Program-made: the position numbers and the translations under genes | The notes under the pieces: generated by a model | Seen by the model: the letters and a program-made list of their open reading frames with translations, nothing else | Database searches by the model: none | Told to the model about the DNA's origin: nothing | Shown: positions 1 through 19,931 of the stretch, in pieces | How the letters are laid out: every line of letters starts with the position of its first letter | Numbering within the stretch: the stretch's first letter is position 1 | Origin: Paenibacillus sp. UNC451MF | GTDB taxonomy: Bacteria > Bacillota > Bacilli > Paenibacillales > NBRC-103111 | Direction of reading: 5' to 3' | Assembly: GCF_000686845.1 (NCBI RefSeq) | Contig: NZ_JMLS01000019.1 | Coordinates: 124,001-188,000 of the forward strand | DNA length: 64,000 bases

Positions 1-3000
1 AACCTTCACGGTTTGACTTAAGAAGGTGTTGCCCGTGTGACCCGGCTTCCCTGTCGTTGCAGATGTACCCGCATAATCACCATAGACAATAATAGTTTTG
101 TCTATGCCGTCCCCAACAAGGCTTACGTAAGGTCTATCCACGGTAAGCTTCTCAGTATAGGTTCCTGCCTTGATGTAAATCACGGTTCTTTCCGTATTTG
201 ATGTCGGAATGGCATTTACAGCGCTTTGAACCGTATTGAAAAGCGTTGTACCAAACCCAGTGCTAGCCGCTGTGGCAGCCTGGTCCACGGTAAGCACTTT
301 TGCTGGCAGAACGGCAATTTCATCCGTTATTGGGCCTGCCCCGTTAGCATTGGAAGCAGATATAACATAGTAGTACGTCGTTCCGTTGGTTACGCTCTTA
401 TCTTCATACGAGGTTTGATTTATTGAAGTAAGGGTCGTATAAGGTCCGCCACTCGTAGTTGCTCTTTTCACGGTATAACCGGTTACTCCGTCTACTTTAT
501 CCCACGTAAGACTGTCACTGCCTTCAGCAGCAACCGCTTTGAAGCCTGTCGGTGCAGCAGGGGCACCAGCCACAGCTGCATAAGGCGTAACCTTCAGCTG
601 GTTGGAGATCATACTTTCCTGAGCTAGCTGTTTGTCCACCACACGGCTTGCAACAACGACATAGTAGTAGGTTGTGTCGTTAGTTACTTTCTCATCTGTA
701 AAGCTAACTCCCCTCACATCGGATTCTACCGTTGTATAAGGTCCACCGTTAACTGTGCTTCTCTTAACACTGTAATACGTTGCGTCCGTAACCGAAGTCC
801 AGCTTAGACCCACCTTATTATTTGCGGGCACGGCGCTTAACAGGGTCGGCGTTTCTAACGGTGCCGCAGGAGTGACCTTAAGAAGCGCGGAGCTTGGACT
901 CGAGCCGCCCATATTTGCTGCCGTAACCTGGTAATAGTATTGCGTACCATTCGTTAAATTTTTATCCAGATAGGTGGTATCGGCAAGCTTCTGCACCACA
1001 GTTACAAACGGACCTTCCGGATGGGTGCTTCTGAGAAGCGTGTAAGTGGAAGCCACCGGTTTTCTGTCCCCATCAATGCCCTGGACTGAGCTCCAGTTCA
1101 AAGTAATTTGACTGTCCCGAATATCGATTTGCCCGAATGCAGGTGCAGTAGCGGGTGGTTTAACATTGTCTGGAGAACCGACAACCTCATTTGACCTGTC
1201 GCTCTCCCCATTCGCATTGACACCCGTCACGATATAGTAATATTTTTCCTTATTTGCAAGACCCGTATCCGTGTACGTAGGCGACTTTACTTCGTTCGCT
1301 ACACGAGTATAGGGACCTCCGGCTGCCGCACTCCGATAGACGTTATAGGAATCCACCCCGCTAGCTGCATTCCAGTTCAGCACGACCGTCTGGTCGGCTC
1401 CTGCCGAGGTTAGATTTTGCGGAGTTACCGCGCCTTGTTGGTAAACCTTCACGTTATCCACGTACATGCTTCCTGTGGAGGAGCCTGCTGTTCTTGCCTG
1501 AATTTTGGCGATGTTCGTGTCCTGCGTACTAAACTTGAAGTTGCCTCTGTAGACTCCATTGAAATATACATCTGCAGAATTCGTTCCTGTATCGGCAACA
1601 AACTTCAGTTGGTACCAGTTCACAGTATTACTAGGATTGACCGTTTCAAATACGTTCAAATTTGTCACGCTAAAAGAAAGCACCGTTTTACCCGAGCTAT
1701 CGATCAGCTCCAAAGGATAGGAATCACCGATGACCTTGGGCTGCATAAAGCTCAACTCTGCCGTCAGACCGTTTTTGCCGGAGACCGGTGTAAAAGCATT
1801 CGTGAAGCCGCCTCTTCGACCCGAATTGGCATTATCGTTGATCCACATCACATTGGTCGAGTTGCCTGTTATCGTCGCCGACTTGTTATTGGCTGGGGCA
1901 ACCTCGGATGGCGAATAATATTTATTCGTCAAATGATTGTTGTTGATGACGGTCACATTGTTGATCGTTTCATCCCCAGCATTAGCAATGGAAACATAAC
2001 CTTCTGGTGTATCACCCAGTGCGCTGGCTTCAAAATTATCATTGATGAAAAATACACCAGGTTTACCCGATACTTCACCGGAATTTGCACCTTCACCGAC
2101 CGCATTCACGGCACTAATCACATAGTAATAAGTGGAACCGTTCGTTAATCCCGTGTGAATGAAGCTAGTATCGTTGACAACGTTAGTTACAAGAGTGTAA
2201 GGTCCTCCAGCTGTCGCGCTCTGCTTGACGTTATAAGACGTCGCTCCGGATACGCTATTCCAGGTAAGCGTCATTTGCTTATTTCCTGCCGAAGCAGAAG
2301 CATTCGTTGGCGCACCAGGTACTGCAGGTGCAGTCGTTACTGTCGGTGTAACGGATACCTCGTTGGAATATACACTTGAGGATACCGAATTGGCAGCTGT
2401 GACGACATATTTATACGTCTGTCCATTCGTTACTGCACTATCCGTATAGCTTAATCCGTTTACCGGACCGCTGTTTAATTTGGTATACGGCCCGCCGCTA
2501 GCTGTACTGCGTCCTACATTGTAATAAACGGCGTCCGTTACTGCGTCCCAGTTGAGAGTAACCTTAGCATCACCAGCCGTACCGCTAAGTGCTGGAACTT
2601 CCAAGGATACCGGCAGCGTCGTGGTCAAACTAGATACCGCTGTGGTTGTGGCACTGTTATAGGAATTGAGCAGCGTTATACTATCGAACGATGCACTAGC
2701 CGCTTTACCCACAGCATAGCCGACATACATGGTTTGATTGGATGTTACATCCGTAATATTTTTTCCATTTATATTGGTCCATGTAATCGTAGTTCCGTCA
2801 GAGGTGCCGATATCAAAATACACATCCGCTTTACTTGTGCCCCCATTCCATTGCTTGCGGACACGCATGTAGCTTGGAGGCGTATCATAGGTTACATCCG
2901 CACCTGAAACCTTATATCCTGAATTACTTGCCGAACCGCTTCCAGCAGCAGATTTAGTAGTAACATATGGCTGGAATTTGCTCCCCGTACCATAATGGTA

Positions 3001-3378
3001 GCTATAAACAAAGGAGCTGCCTTGATCCAGAGTGCTGCGAACCAATACGCCCGCCTGGGCTCCGCTGACATACGGATAATTGGTCAGTCTAGATATTAGG
3101 GTGAAGTCTCCGCTTACAGGAGTATAAGCATATTGAAACTGCTCCGCTGTTGAGTTCTGATTCGTAATGCCATTCGATGAACTGCTAGTCACCGTAAGCT
3201 TACCCGTCGTTTTGTCATATGAGGTTGTCCCCGTGGAACCGTTATAGCTTAAGCTGCTCCAGCCCGTAGGAAGCGCAGCTGCCTCCGCATCAGGTATACC
3301 AAGGATCGGGATATACGATGCGAGCAGTAAAAAGCACAGCATGATGCGTAATGATTTGACCATATTGCCTTTTTTCAT
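1..3378 (-). CDS. Secreted multidomain FN3 / pectinesterase protein (partial, C-terminus beyond window)
   Basis: The frame is open from ATG at 3378 to base 1, giving 1126 residues without a stop. Residues 1-33 form a signal peptide ending AEA. A beta-sandwich (DUF1349/concanavalin-like, with AGVLVRS) follows to about 230, then two fibronectin III modules, a second sandwich-like domain (about 440-640) and four more FN3 modules, each ending in a TYYYVVTA-type strand. From about residue 1028 the sequence (AGTYTEKLTV, then VSLVGDG and GDYAGTS) matches the N-terminal part of CE8 pectin methylesterases. Such enzymes remove methyl esters from homogalacturonan outside the cell. The catalytic Asp residues would lie beyond the window. 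The RBS AAGGAGG lies 12 nt before the start. The domain calls come from reading motifs; the enzyme family call is fairly secure and the sandwich family is less so. Confidence 0.8.
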   Translation of the reverse strand, partial: MKKGNMVKSLRIMLCFLLLASYIPILGIPDAEAAALPTGWSSLSYNGSTGTTSYDKTTGKLTVTSSSSNGITNQNSTAEQFQYAYTPVSGDFTLISRLTNYPYVSGAQAGVLVRSTLDQGSSFVYSYHYGTGSKFQPYVTTKSAAGSGSASNSGYKVSGADVTYDTPPSYMRVRKQWNGGTSKADVYFDIGTSDGTTITWTNINGKNITDVTSNQTMYVGYAVGKAASASFDSITLLNSYNSATTTAVSSLTTTLPVSLEVPALSGTAGDAKVTLNWDAVTDAVYYNVGRSTASGGPYTKLNSGPVNGLSYTDSAVTNGQTYKYVVTAANSVSSSVYSNEVSVTPTVTTAPAVPGAPTNASASAGNKQMTLTWNSVSGATSYNVKQSATAGGPYTLVTNVVNDTSFIHTGLTNGSTYYYVISAVNAVGEGANSGEVSGKPGVFFINDNFEASALGDTPEGYVSIANAGDETINNVTVINNNHLTNKYYSPSEVAPANNKSATITGNSTNVMWINDNANSGRRGGFTNAFTPVSGKNGLTAELSFMQPKVIGDSYPLELIDSSGKTVLSFSVTNLNVFETVNPSNTVNWYQLKFVADTGTNSADVYFNGVYRGNFKFSTQDTNIAKIQARTAGSSTGSMYVDNVKVYQQGAVTPQNLTSAGADQTVVLNWNAASGVDSYNVYRSAAAGGPYTRVANEVKSPTYTDTGLANKEKYYYIVTGVNANGESDRSNEVVGSPDNVKPPATAPAFGQIDIRDSQITLNWSSVQGIDGDRKPVASTYTLLRSTHPEGPFVTVVQKLADTTYLDKNLTNGTQYYYQVTAANMGGSSPSSALLKVTPAAPLETPTLLSAVPANNKVGLSWTSVTDATYYSVKRSTVNGGPYTTVESDVRGVSFTDEKVTNDTTYYYVVVASRVVDKQLAQESMISNQLKVTPYAAVAGAPAAPTGFKAVAAEGSDSLTWDKVDGVTGYTVKRATTSGGPYTTLTSINQTSYEDKSVTNGTTYYYVISASNANGAGPITDEIAVLPAKVLTVDQAATAASTGFGTTLFNTVQSAVNAIPTSNTERTVIYIKAGTYTEKLTVDRPYVSLVGDGIDKTIIVYGDYAGTSATTGKPGHTGNTFLSQTVKV

Positions 3379-10811: not shown

Positions 10812-11186
10812 TCATTTCGACTTGTCATCAAGAATATTTTTCAATTCTTTTATCTCTTCTGGAGATAGCTTTTCCTCTTTTAAAAAGTTCACCAGCAGAG
10901 GCTTAAATGCTCCTCCATAAATTCTCTTCAGGAAGGATGCCGTTTCCGACCTTACACATTCGTCTTCGGAAACTAAAGGGAAATAGGCATATACCTTGCC
11001 TTCCTGCGAATAGGAAATGGCTTGTTTTTGCACTAATCTGTTTAAAAGTGTTCTTATTGTTTTCGGTTTCCAATCTGTTTGATCTTCCAACGCCTCAATC
11101 ACCTCATTCGCTGAACTAGGTGACTTAGACCAGAGGACTTTCATGACTTCCCATTCCGCGTCCGAAATTTGGGGAATATTATTCAT
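10812..11186 (-). CDS. BlaI/MecI-family transcriptional repressor
   Basis: 124 residues from ATG at 11186, chosen because AGGAGGT lies seven bases upstream; an upstream in-frame start at 11228 would lie within the operator. The N-terminal winged helix (ISDAEWEVMKVLW, then KTIRTLLNRLVQK) is the family's signature, followed by a dimerisation and cleavage region. It represses its own promoter and the M56 gene behind it until proteolysis. Two dyad operators overlap the promoter. The pairing with an M56 protein is the standard bla/mec arrangement, but no beta-lactamase gene is nearby. Confidence 0.88.
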   Translation of the reverse strand: MNNIPQISDAEWEVMKVLWSKSPSSANEVIEALEDQTDWKPKTIRTLLNRLVQKQAISYSQEGKVYAYFPLVSEDECVRSETASFLKRIYGGAFKPLLVNFLKEEKLSPEEIKELKNILDDKSK

Positions 11187-11209
11187 CCTTCTACCTCCTG
11201 ATATTAATT

Positions 11210-11250
11210 GATTACACATGTAATACAATATTGATATTACATGTGTAATC
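11210..11250 (-). promoter_or_regulatory. Double BlaI-type operator (two TTACA-N2-TGTAA dyads)
   Basis: Two dyads, ATTACACATGTAAT (11211-11224) and ATTACATGTGTAAT (11236-11249), are themselves arranged as a perfect 16-bp inverted repeat (11210-11225 and 11235-11250) around a 9-base spacer. The centres are 25 bp apart. The TACA-N2-TGTA core is that of BlaI/MecI operators. One dyad overlaps the promoter spacer; the other covers the start-site region. Confidence 0.85.
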
Positions 11251-11279: not shown

Positions 11280-11320
11280 AAAAAAGCCGCTCTCCACATT
11301 AATCACAGGGACCAGCGGCT
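11280..11320 (-). terminator. Terminator upstream of the blaI promoter
   Basis: AGCCGCT (11285-11291) pairs with AGCGGCT (11314-11320). Read on the minus strand it ends in U6, so it would stop transcripts arriving from the accessory region. Read on the plus strand it is followed only by TTGGCCTTTT. Confidence 0.6.
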
Positions 11321-11415
11321 TGGCCTTTTATGCACTTTTATGCAATTTGTATTTATCCAAGTAAATGAGCAGTCATTCTCCACTACTACAGTCTCATATC
11401 CTCCTCAGCACTCTA

Positions 11416-11443
11416 TTTTTCGCCGTCATTTATGGTATGGTTC
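11416..11443 (+). repeat. Distal copy of a 28-bp direct repeat (candidate attachment site)
   Basis: Identical over 28 bases to 19373-19400, in the same orientation. On the minus strand it reads GAACCATACCATAAATGA plus ten further bases, that is, the last codons and stop of rlmH without the rest of the gene. A 10-bp inverted repeat (TTTTCGCCGT at 11417-11426, ACGGCGAAAA at 11459-11468) spans its inner boundary. It is probably one end of an integrated element. Confidence 0.8.
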
Positions 11444-11589
11444 AGCTTAACGGGGCTAACGGCGAAAACAATGGCGGCCCTGAGGCCGCCAGACTTCGCT
11501 GTGCCTACTCACTTTGGCAGACTCATTCAATTAATACCGGTGCTGGCCAGCAATGCGTCGACGTTACGCAACAAGCGATTGTATTAAAA

Positions 11590-11990
11590 TCCCGTTTTCC
11601 TTAAAGTGTACTTTAGCCTTATGTTCTGCTCCGATCTCCGTTCTCCAGCATATCAAGCAGCAGACTGGAAAGCGGGGCTGGAACTTGTGCATTTTGCGAC
11701 GCCGACAGCAAGAGGCCGACATCTTTCTGCGGAATTTTGCTTGCGATATAGATGCTGAATTTTCGGCAATCATTTTGCCATAGCTTTGATAGCTGGGGGC
11801 GGTAAACAGTGTGCTCGTAAGCATATTGACCGCTGCGGTGGGATCAACCCCGCCGTGCTCAGCTATTCCTAGTGCTTCTTCCAGTAAGCGTATGGTTTCA
11901 ATACTTCTAGACAAAAGCAAATCACCTGTGTACCTCTCCCCTGATGCAAACTCGTTCTCGGCTAACCGTTCAAGGGCAGAGCAATAGCGA
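11590..11990 (-). pseudogene. C-terminal remnant of a beta-hydroxyacid dehydrogenase (NAD-binding_11 domain), frameshifted
   Basis: The minus strand encodes LLLSRSIETIRLLEEALG, then GVDPTAAVNML, then SYQSYGKMIAE. This is the helical C-terminal domain of 6-phosphogluconate dehydrogenase-like oxidoreductases. After about 11740 the frame shifts, and the other frame continues the family pattern (DVGLLLSASQNAQVPAPLSS, then LLLDML) before a stop. The N-terminal Rossmann domain with its glycine motif is missing, and the fragment abuts the end of the TetR gene. It is broken in at least two ways, so it is probably non-functional and marks decay or recombination at this end of the island. Confidence 0.65.
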
Positions 11991-11996
11991 AAGAAC

Positions 11997-12587
11997 CTAT
12001 CCCAGCAGTTCTTTGGCTCCTTTCATCACTAAGGGCAAGGACTGTTTAACGAATGATTCCGCACTTATTAGACACCCCTCTTTGTTCCAAGTGTAAGCCG
12101 CCCCATACATCCCCCAACTTAACATGATAGATGCTGTATTTATTAAAAATTGCTCGTTTGAATTCGATAGCATCTTGTCTTTGTCTATAAAGGAAAGAAG
12201 GATCGTTTGAATTTTTTCCTTTATTTGAATTTCGAATACAGGTACAAGTGATGTACTTCTTCTTTTGCATATTGTGTTTAGACTCTTGTGAAATTCGCAT
12301 ATCCCCAGAAAAATACTTTTGATTGTTTCTTCATTTAACACTTCATGACCGTTTATTCTAGGATTCATGATTGTCATAAATGATTCCATTAGTCTGACCT
12401 CAAGAATTTCGAACTTATCTACAAAGTGCGCATAAAAAGTCGCCCTGTTAACAGTAGCCCGCTCTGCAATATCCCTAACGGTTATCAATTCAAAGTCTTT
12501 TTCTTGAATTAATGAAGCAAAAGCGTCTTGAAGGAGTCTCCGTGTACGTATCACACGAGGATCAGCTTCACTTTTTTTTATTGTCAT
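11997..12587 (-). CDS. TetR/AcrR-family repressor, divergent from the MFS efflux gene
   Basis: 196 residues. The N-terminal helix-turn-helix (FELITVRDIAERATVNRATFY) is typical of TetR/AcrR proteins; the C-terminal ligand domain is of the small type. It is transcribed away from the MFS gene, with about 420 bases between. That gap holds two TGTTGT/ACAACA-type dyads, the likely operators. It should repress itself and the transporter until a ligand binds. The start is ATG with no strong RBS in the bases just upstream (ATTTTAACT). Confidence 0.85.
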   Translation of the reverse strand: MTIKKSEADPRVIRTRRLLQDAFASLIQEKDFELITVRDIAERATVNRATFYAHFVDKFEILEVRLMESFMTIMNPRINGHEVLNEETIKSIFLGICEFHKSLNTICKRRSTSLVPVFEIQIKEKIQTILLSFIDKDKMLSNSNEQFLINTASIMLSWGMYGAAYTWNKEGCLISAESFVKQSLPLVMKGAKELLG

Positions 12588-12627
12588 AGTTAAAATCTCC
12601 CCAGTAAAACGACATTATAGAAAGGGT

Positions 12628-12711
12628 GTTGTTAATACAACGGTTCATGGATATTGATGATTGCGTACCAATCGATTGTTATTATAACATAAAAAATACA
12701 ACAAGTGTTGT
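12628..12711. promoter_or_regulatory. Candidate TetR operators between tetR and the MFS gene
   Basis: GTTGT-TAAT-ACAAC lies at 12628-12641 and ACAACA-AG-TGTTGT at 12698-12711; a further half site (ATGTTGTA) follows near 12723. The shared TGTTGT element and placement between divergent genes indicate repressor binding sites. Confidence 0.6.
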
Positions 12712-12761
12712 TCAAACGACTAATGTTGTATTGAATAATACTAAACGCCATTTTTTACAAA

Positions 12762-12822
12762 AGGGGGAGAACACCATGTCGGTTTCATAACAGTCTCAAA
12801 CGAGGGAGCACCGACTTTTTTT
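12762..12822 (+). promoter_or_regulatory. Leader with 4-codon ORF and intrinsic terminator (possible attenuator) ahead of the MFS gene
   Basis: AGGGGGAG is followed six bases later by ATG and a four-codon frame (MSVS, stop at 12788-12790). The ORF's second codon lies in the left arm of a terminator: GTCGGT (12778-12783) pairs with ACCGAC (12810-12815), then U7. The MFS gene starts 187 bases further on. This could be translational attenuation or the stump of a deleted gene. Confidence 0.5.
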
Positions 12823-13008
12823 GTTATTATTCGAGAACGTCTGTCGGTTAGTAGCGATGTTCCCGAGATTAAGATTTCTCGGAAGGAATTGACCAAAACA
12901 TTTCGGCAGCCCCGCGCTACCTCCTTCAGCCGCTAACATAAAGGCGTGGCAGTTTCTCGTTATCGACTAAAATATAATTTTTTTTAAAACACATCAGGAG
13001 TGTGAATT

Positions 13009-14181
13009 ATGAAGAGCACCTGGAAAGTTTACGTTCTAGTCTTGATCACTTTTTTGGTAGGAACATCTAATTATGTCATCTCCGGGATTTTGGACCGGAT
13101 CGCAGAGGCATTAGGAACAAGCGTTGCGGCAGCAGGCCAGCTCATTACGGTCTATTCTCTGGCCTATGCGGTCGGCACGCCTATTCTAATGGCGTTAACG
13201 GCTAAAATGGACCGTCGTAAGCTCCTCCTTTATTCGCTGGGCTTCTTTATTGCTGCAAATCTGCTGACATTTATATTGTCCGGCTTTGGTTTCTTCATTG
13301 CGGCGAGAATCATTACGGCATTAGGCGCCGGGGTGGTTACTGTTAACGCACTCAGCATCGCCGCCAAAATCGCTCCGCCAGGCAAGCAGGCCAGCGCCAT
13401 CGCCAACGTCACCATGGGCTTAACCGCATCGCTCATCATCGGAGTCCCGCTCGGCAGAATGATAGCCTCGTCTTTTGGCTGGAAAGCTGTATTTCTGGCC
13501 ATCGCAATTGTCGGGGGCATGGCCATGTTTGTCATTGCTGCAGTTTTTCCACGTATTGAGGGCGACAAGCCTGTTCGTTTAATCAAGCAATTAGCTTTGT
13601 TAAAAAAACCTCAGGTTTTGGTTGCATTGGCGATTACTTTTTTCTGGTTAGGAGGATATTCTCTCGCTTATACCTACATCTCCCCATTTCTGCTAGAGGT
13701 GACTCATTTAAATGAATCATTGATTAGCACAGCCCTGCTCATGTTCGGCATTGCTAGCTTGATAGGGTCGAAAGTCGGCGGCTACAGCGCAGATAAACGT
13801 GGCATTCTATTCACGCTCGTTTCAGGGATGGTACTTCACGTCATTTCGTTGATTTTGCTATCCTTCGTCGGACAGTCGGTCATTGTCGTATTCGCCATTT
13901 TGATCCTCTGGTCTTTTGCCGCCTGGTCATCTGCTCCGGCACAGCAATTCAACCTGGTTACACTCGTTCCTGAATCCTCGGGCGTCATGCTGAGCTTGAA
14001 CAGTTCCATGATGCAGCTTGCCATGGCATTCGGCGCAGGAATCGGCGGGTTGATCGTTAACCATGTTTCTCTTGCATCCATTACTTGGTTCGGGATACTC
14101 GGCGTACTCATCGCCATCATTACCGCGTTTGTATTGTCCAGCATGTCATCACGGTATTCGGCGGTGCAGTCAGCGAATTAA
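13009..14181 (+). CDS. MFS transporter, DHA1 drug-efflux type (AraJ/YdhP-like)
   Basis: 390 residues with twelve predicted membrane spans, the usual size for DHA1 drug:H+ antiporters. The loop 2-3 motif ALTAKMDRRKLLLYSLGFF corresponds to the family's motif A, and helix 5 has the GVPLGRMIASSFGWKAVF motif C-like region. Members export drugs, sugars or purine analogues; the substrate here is unknown. RBS AGGAG lies upstream. It is divergent from a TetR repressor and preceded by a leader that contains a terminator, so expression is probably inducible. Confidence 0.87.
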   Translation: MKSTWKVYVLVLITFLVGTSNYVISGILDRIAEALGTSVAAAGQLITVYSLAYAVGTPILMALTAKMDRRKLLLYSLGFFIAANLLTFILSGFGFFIAARIITALGAGVVTVNALSIAAKIAPPGKQASAIANVTMGLTASLIIGVPLGRMIASSFGWKAVFLAIAIVGGMAMFVIAAVFPRIEGDKPVRLIKQLALLKKPQVLVALAITFFWLGGYSLAYTYISPFLLEVTHLNESLISTALLMFGIASLIGSKVGGYSADKRGILFTLVSGMVLHVISLILLSFVGQSVIVVFAILILWSFAAWSSAPAQQFNLVTLVPESSGVMLSLNSSMMQLAMAFGAGIGGLIVNHVSLASITWFGILGVLIAIITAFVLSSMSSRYSAVQSAN

Positions 14182-14785
14182 GGGTATAGTAAACATTGAA
14201 TATTTGATAAAGGACTCTGATCACTAAGTTGAGCAAACCGCAAACGAACTGCACCTCAATTGTTGGATCTCGTTCAAGTTTGATTCACTAATAAACTGAA
14301 GAGCGTAGAAAAGAAAATTCTTTTTAAGCAAAGGAAGTGCAGTGTCGCTTATGGATTGATTTGGTCTTCCTATGATGTCATTGTCTTTTACGGAAGAAAC
14401 GGATTTGTATCGGAGGCTACAATTTTAACATTTATTACTGCCTTATAAAACGAGAACTCTCCAGACATGGAGAGTTCTCGTTTTTATCCATGCGTTTGCG
14501 GGTGGTGTCAGCTACGGTGGTATTACCCCATTCTGTATGCCATTATAAGCGACAACCCGATTCCCGCGGCGCAAACATTTCTGCATTCTCAAAACAACAA
14601 TGGCATCATTTGTGGAATACCTATTATTTACGCTCCCTTTTGCAAATTTAGCATCGCAGCCTCAACCTTTAATTCGATTTCTGCTTTACCACTATTTGTG
14701 GTACGGCTCTCCATATCATCTATAGTGCGAAAATGGAGGCAGATATGCAAAGGCACCCTAATGGTTGCCCAAAGAGATGATTTTA
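14182..14785. other. Intergenic stretch in the island with no supported gene
   Basis: Besides the terminator at 14447-14485, the only coding hint is a minus-strand frame ending at 14628, with ATG at 14714 (28 residues, containing KAEIELKVEAAMLNLQKGA). It lacks an RBS and could be the tail of a lost gene. I see nothing else recognisable. Confidence 0.4.
14447..14485 (+). terminator. Strong terminator downstream of the MFS gene
   Basis: A perfect 16-bp stem from AAAACGAGAACTCTCC (14447-14462) to its complement (14469-14484), with a 6-base loop and U5. It carries A-runs and U-runs on both sides, so it can also act on minus-strand transcripts from the permease gene. Confidence 0.85.
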
Positions 14786-15979
14786 TTAGAGGTTATGCGC
14801 AATTTCAACCTCTTGTTTCTGTTCCGGTTGACGGGAATGTTTAAAGGCAGATGCAAGTAAGACCAAGAGGCCGCAGGCGCCGATCCAGATTAAGACGATC
14901 GTCGAATGGTTCATGCTCAGCCCTTGCCTAAAGAAGAACAACTCACGCAGCCCATCAACCAAGAAGCGCATCGGCAACCATGACAGTATCCAATCACGGT
15001 AAAACGGAGACAACAACTCAGGAGCGAAACTAAGGAGTGGCGCACCGAAAAATAGGAACAGTACAAAAATAACCATGCCTTTTAACCCAATCCAAGAGAA
15101 AACAGCAGCTATCATGAGGAAAAACGCTAAATAAGCAATGGCCAAAAATAAAGCCGTATCCATGAAATGAGAAATGTGTAAGCCCCAGCTCTCGGCGAAC
15201 CAAGTGAAGCTAAATCCAGCTATCAAAGCAATAACCGCTCCCCAAAAGACTTGGACGATATTCGCCCGAAGCCGTTCATTGCGATTCGCGGAATTTGATT
15301 TGTTTTTTACAAGCAAGAATATTACATTTGCGATTAGACTGGCCATCCACAAAGGTTGGAACATCAAAACCGGTGAATTCCCGTTCGCACTATGCGTACC
15401 GATTGCATTCGCATGGATGACTTCGCTAACGATAGGCGAAGCGAACGCGGCGGCTTGTTTCGTCGTAATCGCAGCGCCTTGCTGATCGAAAATCGCTAAC
15501 AGTTCGGCACGCATCTCCTCATTCATGCCTCTAATCGCTTGATCTAGCATTTGTTCAGCCATACTAGGTGCCGATGCATTCATGCCTTGGTTGATATAAA
15601 TCCGCACCCGGGATGAAGACGGATCCGGTGTCATCAGCGATGCTTGCTTCTCGCTAAAATCCTCGGGAATCACCAATGCTGCATAATATTCCTGGTTATC
15701 GAGTCCTGCTTTTACTTCTTCTTCGCTGCCAACTTCGATCCATTTCATCGCCGGCTCTCCATCCGAATTCGCAGAGGTTACCGACTGAATGTTAGACACA
15801 ACCGTATCGGCCATATTTACGTTTGAAGCCGTCAAGCCTTGATCCTCATTCACAATGGCAATTGGTAAGTGATGGGAAACAGGATTGATGCTAGGAATCA
15901 TGGCAAGGCTAAAGATGAAGATGACTGCAATAACGATAAGGGGTAATGCCACAATCAATCTGTTTTTAAATAAGCCCAT
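14786..15979 (-). CDS. YhgE/Pip-like ABC-2 family membrane protein (DUF3533-like)
   Basis: 397 residues. An N-terminal membrane helix (about 7-29, VALPLIVIAVIFIFSLAMIP) is followed by an extracytoplasmic domain with HHLPIAIVNEDQG, the hallmark of the YhgE/Pip N-terminus, then a C-terminal block of about six helices (205-385). These are ABC-2-type permease relatives that lack their own ATPase; some work in toxin or drug export. The gene follows the SnoaL-type gene by 41 bases in the same direction, so the two form one operon controlled by the divergent TetR. The permease fold is secure, the substrate unknown. Confidence 0.75.
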   Translation of the reverse strand: MGLFKNRLIVALPLIVIAVIFIFSLAMIPSINPVSHHLPIAIVNEDQGLTASNVNMADTVVSNIQSVTSANSDGEPAMKWIEVGSEEEVKAGLDNQEYYAALVIPEDFSEKQASLMTPDPSSSRVRIYINQGMNASAPSMAEQMLDQAIRGMNEEMRAELLAIFDQQGAAITTKQAAAFASPIVSEVIHANAIGTHSANGNSPVLMFQPLWMASLIANVIFLLVKNKSNSANRNERLRANIVQVFWGAVIALIAGFSFTWFAESWGLHISHFMDTALFLAIAYLAFFLMIAAVFSWIGLKGMVIFVLFLFFGAPLLSFAPELLSPFYRDWILSWLPMRFLVDGLRELFFFRQGLSMNHSTIVLIWIGACGLLVLLASAFKHSRQPEQKQEVEIAHNL

Positions 15980-16020
15980 ACGTTTTCCTCTGTCTTTCTT
16001 GCGATTCAGCTACACCAACC

Positions 16021-16800
16021 TCAAAATCTACTGTTCGAATTCTTTCTTTTTTCTGCCGGCAGTATGGCCTCGATGACGTCCCAATGTTCGGCGATCTTTC
16101 CATTCTCCACGCGGAACAAATCGTAGAAAGCGGTAGGCTGGCCATCGAAGGAACCTTCACTCGCCGTAAGCACAAAATCGCCTTGTCCGATTACCTGATG
16201 AACATGAGTATATTGAAATTCAATATTTTTCTCCTTCAGCGCCTGCAAAGCAGCATGAAGACCGGAAAGCCCGTCTGCAATATGCGGACTATGCTGAATG
16301 TAGTTATCGCCATCAAAGTAAGAGGCAAGCAGCTCAGGCTTCATCCCAAGCAAAATGTTCTCCACATAGCTTTTGACCAATACTTTGTTGGCATCCGTCT
16401 TGTAGATATCCTTAATCGTGACCGGTCCGTCGATCATCGTATGATTACTTGGCGTCTTGTCCGCCATTTCTTGCAAATTGTCCCAATGCTCGACGATGAA
16501 TCCATTCTCAAAACGGAAAATATCAAAGGCGATTTTAGGGCCGTGAAAATCATATACGGAATGAAGAGCCACATAATCTCCGTCGACTAAAGTACGCTTA
16601 ATGCTTACCTTTGTACCAACTTTCTTCAAATGATCAAGTGCACCAAGCATGGCTTCACGACCATCAAGTAAGGCCCGGTTGTGCTGAATGTATTTGTCCG
16701 GATGAACGTAAGCCGTAATCGCTTCGGGGTTGCCGCTCTCTAAACTTTCCAGCACAGCGGTTGCTTTAAGGACAAGCTCATTTTGATGGTTGAATGTCAT
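16021..16800 (-). CDS. Tandem SnoaL-like (NTF2-fold) protein
   Basis: 259 residues made of two related SnoaL-like domains. Domain 1 has YIQHNRALLDG and FDIFRFENGFIVEHWD; domain 2 has YIQHSPHIADG and YDLFRVENGKIAEHWD. The repeated His and HWD motifs line the pocket in polyketide cyclase-like NTF2 proteins, which act on small hydrophobic ligands as hydrolases or isomerases. Most members have one domain, so the internal duplication is notable. It is the first gene of the operon with the YhgE-like permease and is divergent from a TetR gene. RBS AAGGAGG lies upstream of the ATG. The function is unknown; handling of a toxic small molecule is a guess from context. Confidence 0.8.
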   Translation of the reverse strand: MTFNHQNELVLKATAVLESLESGNPEAITAYVHPDKYIQHNRALLDGREAMLGALDHLKKVGTKVSIKRTLVDGDYVALHSVYDFHGPKIAFDIFRFENGFIVEHWDNLQEMADKTPSNHTMIDGPVTIKDIYKTDANKVLVKSYVENILLGMKPELLASYFDGDNYIQHSPHIADGLSGLHAALQALKEKNIEFQYTHVHQVIGQGDFVLTASEGSFDGQPTAFYDLFRVENGKIAEHWDVIEAILPAEKRKNSNSRF

Positions 16801-16833
16801 TGTAAATATCCTCCTTAGAATTTATAGTCATTA

Positions 16834-16866
16834 GATAAATAATGAACATAATGTTGTTTATTTATC
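16834..16866. promoter_or_regulatory. 33-bp near-perfect palindrome, probable TetR operator
   Basis: Arms GATAAATAA (16834-16842) and TTATTTATC (16858-16866) enclose AACAT-A-ATGTT (16845-16855). Only two positions per arm break symmetry. It lies between the divergent SnoaL-like and TetR genes. Confidence 0.75.
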
Positions 16867-16994
16867 TTTCGCTCATTATAATAGAGACGAATACAACGCT
16901 CAATATTTAATATTTTTGTTTTTGCAGGATAAGATACAATTCATAGAACTTTGTCGCTTAACGGTCTAAATTAATTTGGGGAGGAACGAAAATC

Positions 16995-17600
16995 ATGAAT
17001 GGAAAAACGGATCTAAGAGTACTGCGCACTAGACAATCGATTCGAATGGCGTTTTATGAGCTTATTGAGGAAAAAGGATATGAAGCGATAACGATCCAGG
17101 ATATTGCAGATCGGGCAATGATCAATCGAAACACATTTTATCTTCATCACCAAAATAAACCCGATTTATTGGACACATGTATGGATGAGTTGTTGAGCGA
17201 ACTAAAGAATGCAGTCGTACTATGTCCATTCAATATGAGTCCTTTCCATATTTCTACACTTGAGACAGTCATGCAAACTGTACTGGAGCATATTTCGCGG
17301 AACACCACCTTTTACTATGCCATGTTAATTGAAGAGAATAGAATCTACCAGTTTCGGGCGAAAATGGAGAATATCATTAAAGATAAACTGAATGAAGGCT
17401 GGATTCTTGCTCAGGGAAATTCCCCTTTAGCGCTATCCAAGGAATTACTGCTTGAATACCTCGTATCGTCTTTCATGGGGATTGTCATGTGGTGGATTAA
17501 GAACGATCTTCCTCTTCCTGCGGGTGAAGCTGCATCTCAATTTAGCAGGATCGTTGCCTACGGGCACTTGAAAGCTGCCGGCATCGCCGTCGGGGAATGA
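16995..17600 (+). CDS. TetR/AcrR-family regulator of the SnoaL-permease operon
   Basis: 201 residues with an N-terminal helix-turn-helix (YEAITIQDIADRAMINRNTFY). The C-terminal region (from about residue 75) resembles the TetR_C_8-type domain, with a hydrophobic FMGIVMWWI helix near residue 165. RBS GGGGAGG lies 11 bases before the ATG. It is divergent from the SnoaL/YhgE-like pair and faces a 33-bp palindrome. It is related in its first 60 residues to the other TetR in this island (shared RTR, ITV/IQDIA and NR.TFY positions), but not a recent duplicate. Confidence 0.85.
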   Translation: MNGKTDLRVLRTRQSIRMAFYELIEEKGYEAITIQDIADRAMINRNTFYLHHQNKPDLLDTCMDELLSELKNAVVLCPFNMSPFHISTLETVMQTVLEHISRNTTFYYAMLIEENRIYQFRAKMENIIKDKLNEGWILAQGNSPLALSKELLLEYLVSSFMGIVMWWIKNDLPLPAGEAASQFSRIVAYGHLKAAGIAVGE

Positions 17601-17644
17601 AACTGCATAGCAACATTGAAAAGAGGGAGTTGCGTCGCAAGCGA

Positions 17645-17690
17645 AACGAAAGGAGCTGCCGCGGCATGCTCCTTTCGTTGCTTTAATATA
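17645..17690 (+). terminator. Terminator-like hairpin after tetR
   Basis: AACGAAAGGAGC (17645-17656) pairs perfectly with GCTCCTTTCGTT (17668-17679); TGCCGCGGCA inside is itself a palindrome. The tail is GCTTTAATAT, so termination is likely but not textbook. Confidence 0.6.
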
Positions 17691-17712
17691 GAACGTAGAC
17701 GCTGTAATTCAA

Positions 17713-18291
17713 TTACACGAATGATCTCCCACCTATATTTCTCAACTTTATAACAGAGTCATTGTTCTGAATTGACAATACACCAGGGCTAAGTTCACAG
17801 AGAGTCTCAACATCCTTGGGATTTAAACGTATCTGTTTCTGCACCAGTTCAAAAGCATCCATGCCCGATTGAATTATCGCATCGAAATCTGTTTCTGAAG
17901 AGAGGTGTACCGACTGAGTGAAATCAACCCTAAGTCTTTTGCACGATGAATCATAGCGGCAATGGAGACCCGCCAATACTTCTTAAGCTCTTTGTATCCA
18001 TCCAGTGTAGTATCGCTTGACACCATTGATGCGAATGCCTCTTCAGGAAGTAAAAACGCAGAGGCGAAATGGTTAGCCTGTTGTCCCCTAATTTTAAATT
18101 CTTCTTTAGATAAGTTCTCTTGATTGTGAATTCAAATGCATTAATAAATGCCCTAATTCGTGCGCTGCATCAAAATGCCTTCTTGCAGCTGATTTTTTAT
18201 CTTCACCTAATAGACTCGTATCGCCAAGGCAGTTTAGCCTATCATGCCCGCCACTCCATGTAAAGCCTTTCTGAGTTACTTTGATTCGTTA
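17713..18291 (-). pseudogene. ImmA/IrrE-family metallopeptidase, broken by frameshifts
   Basis: The minus strand encodes GFTWSGGHDRLNCLGD, then HFDAAHELGHLLMHLN, the zinc-binding HELGH motif of ImmA/IrrE proteases. Near 18115 the frame changes and the family pattern continues (QQANHFASAFLLPEEAF, then KKYWRVSIAAMIHRAKDLGL), stopping near 17870. A third frame (DAIIQSGMDAFELV, then DVETLCELSPGVL) restores the C-terminal piece to 17713. The N-terminus is missing beyond a stop at about 18291. ImmA cleaves phage-type repressors such as ImmR to induce mobile elements, so its ruins in a repeat-bounded island are informative. Two frameshifts make it inactive unless sequencing errors are involved. Confidence 0.75.
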
Positions 18292-18323
18292 AAATTCATT
18301 TACACAAAATAATTTACATCCCC

Positions 18324-19169
18324 TTAATTTTTGAATCTATTCCTTAATTTCTCGTCTGCTACAACGAAAGGAAATTCCATATGTATATTATTGTTTGCTG
18401 TAAGGGTGTCTGTAATGATGGAATTAAATCTCTGCAACCAAGATTTAACTCCATCATCTTCAAAATCAATCTGAGCACCAAAAGCAAAATTACGAATTGC
18501 CGATCTTATTCTACTTATCACAATTGTTAGTATTACATATTTATTTGGAGTATCTTCCTCTCTAATATCAGGTACTGCCATTATGACATATTCCCCTTCA
18601 CGATGCGTTGATGCTCCAGTATCATGTATTGCAGATGGCATTGTTGGATGTTTAATTTTACACAACCATCTATATGCGCCATACAATTGTACCCAAGTCA
18701 TCTCATATTCCTGTTCAGAAAACTCATTTTCAAGAACCTGAGCTTCTTCTTTTGCTTGATCGGCATGAAACTTGCATAAATTAACAACCGACCAAGGAGA
18801 ATCACCTGATTTATTATTCATGATAAGACTTGCCCGCTCATCATTGTTGGATATCGCTTCAACTATTAAGGCATTTTCAAACGCCGCCGCAGCAACGCAT
18901 CCTGCTTGCGATGTGTAACCTGTCTGTAATAAGCTCCAAATGGCCCTTAAATCAGTTAGACACCTTTTAAGAAATATCCCTCCAATTTTCGTGCTATTAC
19001 TACCTTCTTGGGCGTTGTTCTTTAACATCGCAACCCCTATACCGCATTCATACAATTTTTCTATCGGTTCTTCGAATACTTTAAGAACTTCATTTAGAGT
19101 TAACGCAGCCGATATCTCCATCTTATAACATGTCTTCCATAGTCCCTTTGCTGATTTGATTTCTTCCAC
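18324..19169 (-). CDS. Hypothetical protein, possibly DUF5677-like
   Basis: 281 residues, soluble, without signal peptide or clear catalytic motif. A helical stretch around residues 70-110 (LKRCLTDLRAIWSLLQTGY, then QAGCVAAAAFENALIVEAI) recalls the RxxLE/AAxxLRxLFEA helix of the DUF5677/HEPN-like group, and a KIKHPTMPSAIHD segment follows near 175. I cannot assign a function. The gene is visibly richer in A+T than rlmH next to it, consistent with transfer. It lies against the rlmH-proximal end of the island, beside the broken ImmA/IrrE gene. A further 200 bases to rlmH hold nothing recognisable. Confidence 0.6.
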   Translation of the reverse strand: MEEIKSAKGLWKTCYKMEISAALTLNEVLKVFEEPIEKLYECGIGVAMLKNNAQEGSNSTKIGGIFLKRCLTDLRAIWSLLQTGYTSQAGCVAAAAFENALIVEAISNNDERASLIMNNKSGDSPWSVVNLCKFHADQAKEEAQVLENEFSEQEYEMTWVQLYGAYRWLCKIKHPTMPSAIHDTGASTHREGEYVIMAVPDIREEDTPNKYVILTIVISRIRSAIRNFAFGAQIDFEDDGVKSWLQRFNSIITDTLTANNNIHMEFPFVVADEKLRNRFKN

Positions 19170-19372
19170 TACACCACATCCTTTATTTTGATTTTCATAA
19201 CATCTTGGATTCAGAACACCCCACTACCTCAAAACTTAGAAGAAACAAACACGTTATCTTCTTATGGTTACAATTATTTTCCTAAGCCCAAAGCGATGTC
19301 TTTTTAAGTATCGTGAACTAGTTACTTGGGAGCAGGGCAAATATATGACGAACCGAACTTTCTACAACAATT

Positions 19373-19400
19373 TTTTTCGCCGTCATTTATGGTATGGTTC
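19373..19400 (+). repeat. rlmH-proximal copy of the 28-bp direct repeat (candidate attachment site)
   Basis: On the minus strand it comprises the last rlmH codons for EPYHK, the TGA stop (19385-19383) and ten downstream bases, identical to 11416-11443. Because ten bases outside the gene are also identical, the match is not explained by protein conservation. Confidence 0.8.
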
Positions 19401-19862
19401 CCCCCGCATAATCTTAAACGCCCTATAAATCTGCTCCACCAGCACCAGCCGCATCAGCTGATGCGGCAAGGTCATGCGGCCGAACGACAGCTTCAGTTCG
19501 GCGCGTGCCAGCACCGCGGGGGCTAGCCCTAGCGAGCCCCCGATGACGAAGGCCACGTGGCTGCGCCCGTACGTGGCCAAGCCCTCCACATGCCGCGCGA
19601 GCTCATCGCTCGATAGCGGCTTGCCGTCAAGAGCGAGCGCCACGACGTAGGCGTCGCTCTTGATCTGCGCGAGGATGCGTTCGCCCTCGCGTTGACGTAC
19701 GAGCGCCTCCTCTGCGGCGCTCATGTTCTCCGGTGCCTTCTCGTCAGGCACCTCACTGATCTGCACTTTGGCATAGGGTCCAAGGCGTTTGACATACTCC
19801 GCAATCCCCTGTACCAAGTACGATTCCTTCAGCTTACCTACAGCAACAATCTGTATTTGCAT
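19383..19862 (-). CDS. rlmH: 23S rRNA (pseudouridine1915-N3)-methyltransferase RlmH
   Basis: 159 residues from ATG at 19862, the family's standard length; AGGATG lies eight bases upstream, whereas an ATG at 19874 would add four extra residues. It is a SPOUT-fold enzyme that methylates pseudouridine 1915 in helix 69 of 23S rRNA, using S-adenosylmethionine bound at the knot ([11 protein letters not shown]). The C-terminus [20 protein letters not shown], then PYHK, is the conserved family ending and forms part of the active site. The gene is strikingly GC-rich. Its 3' end is duplicated 8 kb away, yet the reading frame is intact, as expected if a mobile element inserted just at its end. Confidence 0.97.
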
Positions 19863-19931
19863 AACCGACAACATCCTTTTCTCTCTTTATGCTTTTGTGG
19901 ATCTCTTGGATCCATCAAGAACTTCTCTAAA

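Follow-up and report, generated by a model that had tools for sequence, protein, structure and literature searches.

A putative non-autonomous cassette at the 3′ end of rlmH in a Paenibacillus genome

Results

An accessory island abuts the 3′ end of rlmH

The genome of Paenibacillus sp. UNC451MF carries an island of about 8 kb of accessory genes that abuts the 3′ end of an intact rlmH gene. This island is very probably a non-autonomous rlmH cassette, for which a Ccr-type recombinase would have acted in trans or been lost later. In staphylococci, SCC elements insert at the 3′ end of rlmH (orfX) by the action of Ccr recombinases, leaving a repeat and an intact gene, and they are characterized by direct repeats, terminal inverted repeats, and variable cargo. 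An earlier note on the 64,000-nucleotide stretch of DNA analyzed here (the window) proposed an SCC-like attachment. The repeat and the Pfam match of rlmH support insertion at the gene's 3′ end with the gene left intact, and the SCC-like reading as a whole is largely right, but it is refined below with regard to the make-up of the repeat and to the site, which is not exceptional.

The sequence TTTTTCGCCGTCATTTATGGTATGGTTC occurs twice, at positions 11416 to 11443 and 19373 to 19400, with 100% identity, in one orientation, and with a spacing of 7957 bases, as had been claimed. A simple calculation puts the chance expectation for exact 28-base repeats at fewer than 1e-6 per 64 kb. Given the location and strand of rlmH (Table 1), nucleotides 19383 to 19400 comprise its final five codons together with the stop, and nucleotides 19373 to 19382 are the ten bases beyond the stop, in agreement with the earlier description of the right copy. 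However, equating the repeat with the rlmH 3′ end holds for only 18 of the 28 bases, since the other ten belong to an element terminus as judged from relatives. Identity over these additional ten bases hints that an older cassette was already present when this one was inserted ahead of it and that the older left end persists; the chromosomal side of the distal copy is perhaps a remnant of that older cassette. A search of the entire 7.49-Mb genome with a 21-base core, allowing up to 3 mismatches, returned exactly two copies and hence no third one, and the reversed-pattern control returned 0. The G+C content of the interval is 42.7%, compared with 46.4% on its left side and 47.8% on its right side.

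Table 1. Features of the rlmH-linked island and its borders (window coordinates)
Feature	Position	Strand	Evidence or remark
BlaI/MecI-type repressor gene, left flank outside the island	10812..11228	-	Pfam Penicillinase_R 8.4e-39
Chromosomal side of distal copy	11306..11425		Begins with element-type terminus CGGCGAAAAA; G009 homology stops at 11306
Distal 18-base core copy	11426..11443	-	0 mismatches to degenerate core
Right element end	11444..11469	-	Dyad with left end, 11/12 positions
Possible gene remnant near distal end	11567..11998	-	No Pfam family; 268-base stretch 82-85% identical in G004, G006
TetR-family regulator	11997..12587	-	Pfam TetR_N 4.7e-10
MFS transporter	13009..14181	+	Pfam MFS_1 3e-45; NCBIfam matches all under their cut-offs
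ABC-2 / YhgE-Pip-like membrane protein	14786..15979	-	Pfam ABC2_membrane_3 3e-21
Protein with two SnoaL-like domains	16021..16800	-	Pfam SnoaL_2 2.5e-18, SnoaL 1.3e-17
TetR-family regulator	16995..17600	+	Pfam TetR_C_8 3.9e-12, TetR_N 2.7e-10
Peptidase_M78 (ImmA/IrrE-type) pseudogene, two frames	17877..18288	-	PF06114 1.2e-5 and 6.8e-8, pieces searched separately
281-aa protein, family not assigned	18324..19169	-	No match in Pfam, NCBIfam, PADLOC
Left element end (rlmH side)	19303..19382	-	Begins CGGCGAAAAA
Core copy at rlmH (18 bases; final five codons plus stop)	19383..19400	-	GAACCATACCATAAATGA
rlmH, target gene, intact	19383..19874	-	Pfam SPOUT_MTase E 1e-57; present in 13/13 genus genomes

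The island ends form a dyad and resemble those of recombinase-bearing units

The interval from 11444 to 19382 would represent one cassette of a site-specific element family that targets the last 18 bases of rlmH. The core, a copy of the rlmH end, would be framed by the two element ends as the arms of a dyad, and crossover within it would be carried out by a large serine recombinase from the CcrB-like clade. Because the crossover would fall inside the core, rlmH would remain intact. After insertion, one element end would lie directly past the rlmH stop codon, and a second core together with the other element end would form the far boundary.

The island's own two ends pair as a dyad with fixed spacing (Table 1). 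Over 109 units, the mean dyad score is 7.20 versus 6.47 (sd 0.14) when ends are shuffled between units, where the highest of 1000 shuffles reached 6.93; random positions scored 4.29. When the comparison is confined to one region at a time, two ends of one unit score 7.36 (n = 77), which is only slightly above the 7.00 observed for ends of different units (n = 182).

The termini are also shared with recombinase-bearing units. The left end agrees at 59 of 78 aligned bases with a unit end in genome G103 and at 55 of 78 with a G079 unit that holds a recombinase of the clade, and the best among approximately 300 random 80-mers agreed at 46. The right-end type is common to 49 of the 104 family genomes (reversed-pattern control, 0) and was judged by eye to be common to recombinase-bearing units. 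The cassette ends may still be usable.

An origin without a site-specific enzyme, in which slippage or unequal exchange duplicated the rlmH end locally, would be favored by the fact that some extra copies in G079 run on into rlmH-like coding sequence. This origin is nevertheless extremely improbable for the island. Here, on the rlmH side, the match ends precisely with the core and gives way to a dyad arm, and unrelated genes lie between the copies; in relatives, the core is the point at which the flanks switch.

Parts of the cargo have homologues in other genomes of the genus

Of the two pseudogenes that had been claimed, the broken Peptidase_M78 gene is clear, but the one near the distal end is unproven because no Pfam family matched. 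A PADLOC search for a defense function of the cargo gave no match apart from a weak one to RmrA (2.1e-4), which falls on an 87-aa frame of the broken Peptidase_M78 gene. The stretch with the first TetR gene and the MFS gene (11972 to 14232) is 89% identical at G004 (contig C120) and G011 (C63), and the stretch with the SnoaL-like and second TetR genes (15991 to 17592) is 85 to 87% identical at G007, G002, and G011 (C17). Thus, homologues of the cargo exist elsewhere in the genus. The earlier note had raised the prospect that the cargo is ancestral at this locus, and it was not found beside rlmH in the other 12 genus genomes at >49% protein identity. Outside the island, the BlaI/MecI-type repressor gene is a 92% identical neighbor of the rlmH region in G009.

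Recombinases linked to rlmH form a CcrB-like clade that is absent from this genome

The claim that the island holds no recombinase is supported by a tblastn search with 16 recombinases, in which no Ccr-like gene was matched in the whole window at E 1e-3. The island has neither ccrAB nor ccrC genes of its own, and the genome has no clade member either. When the genome was checked for ccr-type recombinases, as the earlier note had suggested, one large serine recombinase was found (G000:C27, 523 aa as translated). This protein is not favored as the mover because it falls outside the rlmH-linked clade in the tree, scores 174 bits to CcrB versus 303 to 431 bits for nine clade members, and is encoded on another contig. 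Among the matches listed, those large serine recombinases beside rlmH whose length allowed placement group into one clade (100/100); the tree excludes two rlmH-linked pieces of <400 aa (L119 and L122). CcrB gave the best score for 9 of 9 clade members scanned, all under NCBI's CcrB cut-off of 900 bits.

These observations also bear on whether the island is a decayed autonomous element that lost its own CcrB-like recombinase by deletion and is now fixed. Such decay is possible, if somewhat doubtful. It is consistent with the broken Peptidase_M78 gene, with the decayed ccr-like pieces that adjoin an att-like site in G009, and with the resemblance of the left terminus to that of a recombinase-bearing unit. 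However, a ccr-like remnant is absent from the whole window, and the proportion of family units without a Ccr-like match (101/114) is above what occasional decay easily yields. For a non-autonomous cassette, the inserting enzyme was probably the CcrB-like one, which would have acted in trans or been lost later.

Cassette-like units are common downstream of rlmH in the family

We surveyed 102 rlmH-downstream regions from 104 family genomes, leaving out G038, where rlmH was not matched, and G100, where it is fragmented; several regions are truncated where their contig stops (to 123, 394, and 771 bases, for instance). Extra 18-base ends with up to 2 mismatches number 110 in one orientation and 1 in the other. 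The counts are 151 versus 3 at up to 3 mismatches, and the bias is weaker at up to 4 (219 versus 60). Bounded units, 114 in all, were found in 59 of the 102 regions, with a median length of 3.6 kb, and 13 of them contain a Ccr-like match. The longest row is that of G072, where the 64 kb following rlmH contain 11 cores; this five-contig genome has no large serine recombinase among the matches listed. The rlmH site in the window is thus not exceptional within the family. Use of this target outside the usual hosts, as put forward earlier, is real but neither rare in the family nor, given published examples, new.

The right-end pattern follows the same arrangement. Of its 110 copies, 51 are located downstream of rlmH at a distance of up to 100 kb, all in the expected orientation, with 0 in the opposite orientation and 0 upstream; 53 of the remaining 59 are on other contigs and 6 are far from rlmH. 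We considered whether the cores are a dispersed REP-like repeat of the genus whose match to rlmH is incidental. Core-like copies away from rlmH do exist in several relatives, but the presence of only two copies in this genome, together with the one orientation and the placement behind rlmH seen in the family survey (110 versus 1 and 51/51), leads us to reject this very improbable explanation here.

Flanking sequences switch at the site in relatives

In 15 pairs among relatives, what adjoins rlmH in one member is found behind a distal copy in the other, and the switch falls at the site. Nine of these pairs show 88 to 99% identity; the other six, at 80 to 82%, may reflect shared element ends instead of less occupied sites. 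For example, the sequence that immediately follows rlmH in G075, G088, and G097 is found after extra copy four of G096 (95 to 98%, 300 bases), and the corresponding sequence of G009, G052, and G059 is found after the extra copy in G043 (89 to 93%). Such occupied and less occupied pairs come from relatives only, and no empty site was found for the window's own left flank. In the close relative G009, homology to this flank ends at position 11306, 110 bases before the repeat, and rlmH is followed by a flank common to G052 and G059. Three pieces of this G009 flank sit on three separate contigs in the genome studied here (C31, 90%; C34, 93%; C10, 88%), so that G009 does not simply represent the locus in its empty state.

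Flanks of cassette rows that are common to different species would also be expected if the island had arrived through homologous recombination, from a donor with an existing cassette row at rlmH. The Enterococcus cassette chromosome (ECC) is reported to have also moved through homologous recombination between IS elements (PMC6222049). This route is unlikely, as it requires long flanking homology.

Discussion

Beyond the island itself, we tentatively propose that the Paenibacillaceae possess an integron-like gene-cassette system based on serine recombination. In such a system, rlmH would be the fixed receiving site, small dyad-ended cassettes would be stacked in one orientation, and the enzyme would be supplied mostly in trans from rare, transient CcrB-like units; the window's island would be one cassette. 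If this is true, rows as long as that of G072 would serve as gene stores such as have until now mainly been described for integrons and, at ssrA, for Dehalococcoides. The likeness to integron cassette arrays lies in array form only. No paper on rlmH cassette rows across the Paenibacillaceae was found among CC0, CC BY, and CC BY-SA full texts.

SCC elements matter because methicillin resistance spreads by them among staphylococci, and the present observations bear on the origin of the Ccr/rlmH system and on the movement of recombinase-less cassettes. This family from soil, with its many extra sites and units that lack a Ccr-like gene, offers numerous natural test cases of trans-mobilization and a large pool of recombinase/site pairs. 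For annotation, the region behind rlmH should be parsed by unit, cutting at the 18-base core.

Like SCC, the island lies at the 3′ end of an intact rlmH and has direct target repeats and terminal inverted repeats. It differs in its host family, its core sequence variants, its small size, and its lack of mec and ccr genes, and the recombinases of its relatives score far under NCBI's Ccr cut-offs. One report describes a region linked to orfX that has the terminal repeats of SCC but no ccr (PMC3637587). In Dehalococcoides, islands at ssrA are reported to have a CcrB homologue (DsiB) and to form tandem rows marked by direct repeats of the gene end, and 15 of these islands lack an integration module (PMC3146451). 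Those islands differ from ours in target and phylum.

Use of rlmH as a target in Bacillota, including Paenibacillus pinistramenti, appears in a further report (PMC10061031), so that target and host genus are the same as here. The P. pinistramenti recombinase was retrieved by a clade query (L261). The islands reported there include composites in which the rlmH end occurs more than once, and the present island likewise combines the rlmH target with a second end that matches the last rlmH bases. Unlike the islands described there, which carry polymerase-SSB pairs, a helicase, and recombinases, ours has none of these. In Enterococcus, which also uses rlmH, excision and transfer of ECC have been demonstrated (PMC6222049). 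ECC occupies another host and carries ccrAB_Ent, whereas the present island lacks ccr, but the ECC motif TATCATAA given there corresponds to TACCATAA in this island.

Repeat and layout of the rlmH locus

The 28-base direct repeat claimed in an earlier note matches exactly between its two copies, the right one consisting, as proposed, of the end of rlmH plus ten further bases. If the repeat were a dispersed element, additional copies would be expected; a genome-wide count of its 21-base core (≤3 mismatches) gave exactly two and no third. Below, the core means the last 18 bases of rlmH. Read in the orientation of rlmH, the order is the gene with its end GAACCATACCATAAATGA, CGGCGAAAAA and the island, GTTTTCGCCGTTAGCCCCGTTAAGCT, a second GAACCATACCATAAATGA and finally CGGCGAAAAATAGAG on the chromosomal side. 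The island ends (arms) pair with each other at 11 of 12 positions, and island G+C lies below that of both flanks. In relatives, the arm sits at a fixed 16-base distance from the core in distal copies and is mostly absent from copies at rlmH itself. The core plus right arm pattern (≤3 mismatches) is present in 49 of 104 family genomes, and the reversed pattern in none. The accessory genes reported inside the interval were likewise recovered.

Features of the island and of related loci
Feature	Location	Remark
rlmH	19383-19874	minus strand
Core at rlmH	19383-19400	
Distal core	11426-11443	
Island	11444-19382	
Two TetR genes	inside island	
MFS transporter gene	inside island	
ABC-2/YhgE-like membrane protein gene	inside island	
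Double SnoaL protein gene	inside island	
Peptidase_M78 gene	inside island	broken
281-aa protein	inside island	family unknown
268-base stretch	11625-11891	near distal end
Long open frame	1-3378	minus strand
Stretch matching long open frame	L080:6275-6850	upstream, same contig
Solo rlmH-end core	L328:6656-6673 (G011:C63)	1 mismatch; contig without rlmH
Row of 11 cores	G072 C1:2963831-3027749	5-contig genome
Decayed Ccr-like recombinase pair (pieces)	L061:5852-6859 (G009:C1:6936824-6937858)	
att-like core	L061:8212	~0.97 Mb from rlmH
Recombinase subclade	L110:3815-5599; L112:16852-19095; L117:298-2496	

A counterpart of the island's TetR-MFS cargo, 89% identical, lies about 85 bases away from the solo core. 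The 268-base stretch has counterparts of 82-85% identity at two places in the related genome G004 and at one in G006; of the contexts fetched, the two that contain a core (L336 and L337) have one with 2 mismatches ≤2.4 kb away. The long open frame matches its upstream counterpart in several registers, as in a repeat protein family.

A possible older cassette at the distal core

Directly after rlmH, the relatives G075, G088 and G097 carry cgcaaattttta... and G096 carries cggcgaaaaattgggg...; in G096 the cgcaaattttta... sequence is located 6.5 kb away, immediately preceded by ...TTTTTCGCCGATACCCCCGTTAAGCT and the core, and is 95-98% identical over 300 bases to those of the other three. Because this sequence adjoins rlmH in G075, G088 and G097 but the fourth extra core in G096, CGGCGAAAAA is the terminus of an inserted element. 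The source genome has these ten bases beside its distal core as well, on the chromosomal side, which suggests that the present cassette was inserted ahead of an older cassette, whose left end would still be there. Left-flank homology to the close relative G009 begins only at 11306.

Cassette rows behind rlmH

Extra copies of GAACCRTAYCATAARTGA were counted in 102 regions reaching ≤20 kb behind rlmH (1.70 Mb in total). Copies in rlmH orientation versus the opposite one numbered 110 versus 1 at ≤2 mismatches, 151 versus 3 at ≤3, and 219 versus 60 at ≤4; further pieces, picked for holding pattern hits, gave 38 versus 0. With sites defined by ≤2 mismatches or a dyad (pairing of the arms around the core) of ≥9, at least one extra site is present in 59 of the 102 regions, and the 114 units so bounded span 395 to 17,714 bases (median 3,597). 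A Ccr-like recombinase match (tblastn) falls inside 13 of these units and anywhere in 23 of the 102 regions, some matches being only short pieces. G072 has 11 cores ≤64 kb behind rlmH and no PF07508 (recombinase family) protein among the matches listed. Of 110 right-end pattern copies, 51 lie ≤100 kb downstream of rlmH, and each of these has the expected orientation; none lies ≤100 kb upstream, six are farther away on the same contig, and 53 are on other contigs, a number of these perhaps being detached pieces of rows.

Comparison of 250 sites with flanks gave 37 intergenomic pairs with a common right flank (≥80% over ≥100 bases from the core); left flanks differ in 25 of them. Fifteen pairs match rlmH itself with a distal copy: nine at 88-99% (G043 with G009, G052 and G059; G096 with G075, G088 and G097; G084 with G079 and G098; G072 with G093), and six at 80-82%, which may be shared element ends. 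In the G084 cases, and perhaps in that of G093, the number of cassettes is lower but the site is not bare.

SCC elements are known to use the rlmH target and the same kind of recombinase. Both are also described for ECC (PMC6222049) and for rlmH-linked islands of Bacillota, P. pinistramenti and composites among them (PMC10061031). In Dehalococcoides this recombinase kind is described with ssrA as target, and islands without an integration module were also counted (PMC3146451). S. haemolyticus has an orfX-linked region without ccr (PMC3637587). The single island adds a member to a known kind of element. The novelty lies in the cassette rows, at this frequency, behind rlmH; the literature searched yielded no report of small, mostly recombinase-less rlmH cassette rows across Paenibacillaceae.

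A CcrB-like recombinase as candidate mover

The element was said to carry no recombinase, and no Ccr-like match was found in the whole window (tblastn with 16 recombinases, E 1e-3). PF07508 proteins adjoin rlmH in at least 13 genomes; those of at least 400 aa, taken into a recombinase tree, form one clade with a G005 protein (support 100/100), separate from 22 other recombinases of the genus, among them the source genome's only one. CcrB is the best NCBI model for the nine clade members scanned (303-431 bits; cut-off 900), and the source genome's protein scores 174 bits against it. A search of that genome for ccr-type recombinases with the clade profile found only this same non-clade protein. 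Of 77 loci in named genomes that have a clade-type recombinase, 41 also include rlmH in the sequence fetched, and loci with both span Paenibacillus, Cohnella, Saccharibacillus, Brevibacillus, Alicyclobacillus, several Bacillaceae and Clostridium homopropionicum. The left 80 bases of the island match the end of a G103 unit at 59 of 78 positions and that of a recombinase-bearing G079 unit at 55 of 78 (at most 46 for ~300 random pieces), and the right arm is of the type found in recombinase-bearing units.

Insertion was most likely carried out by a CcrB-like large serine recombinase, which would join the element core to the rlmH end so that the inserted element is flanked by its two arms, one per side. 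As the source genome has no clade member, the candidate enzyme would have acted in trans and since disappeared, or been lost from the element; excision and transfer are putative.

In G009, the decayed Ccr-like pair is located near the att-like core. The open frame of one recombinase subclade overlaps the rlmH end (CATCGCTAA) on the opposite strand, resembling the dsiB-ssrA overlap described in PMC3146451.
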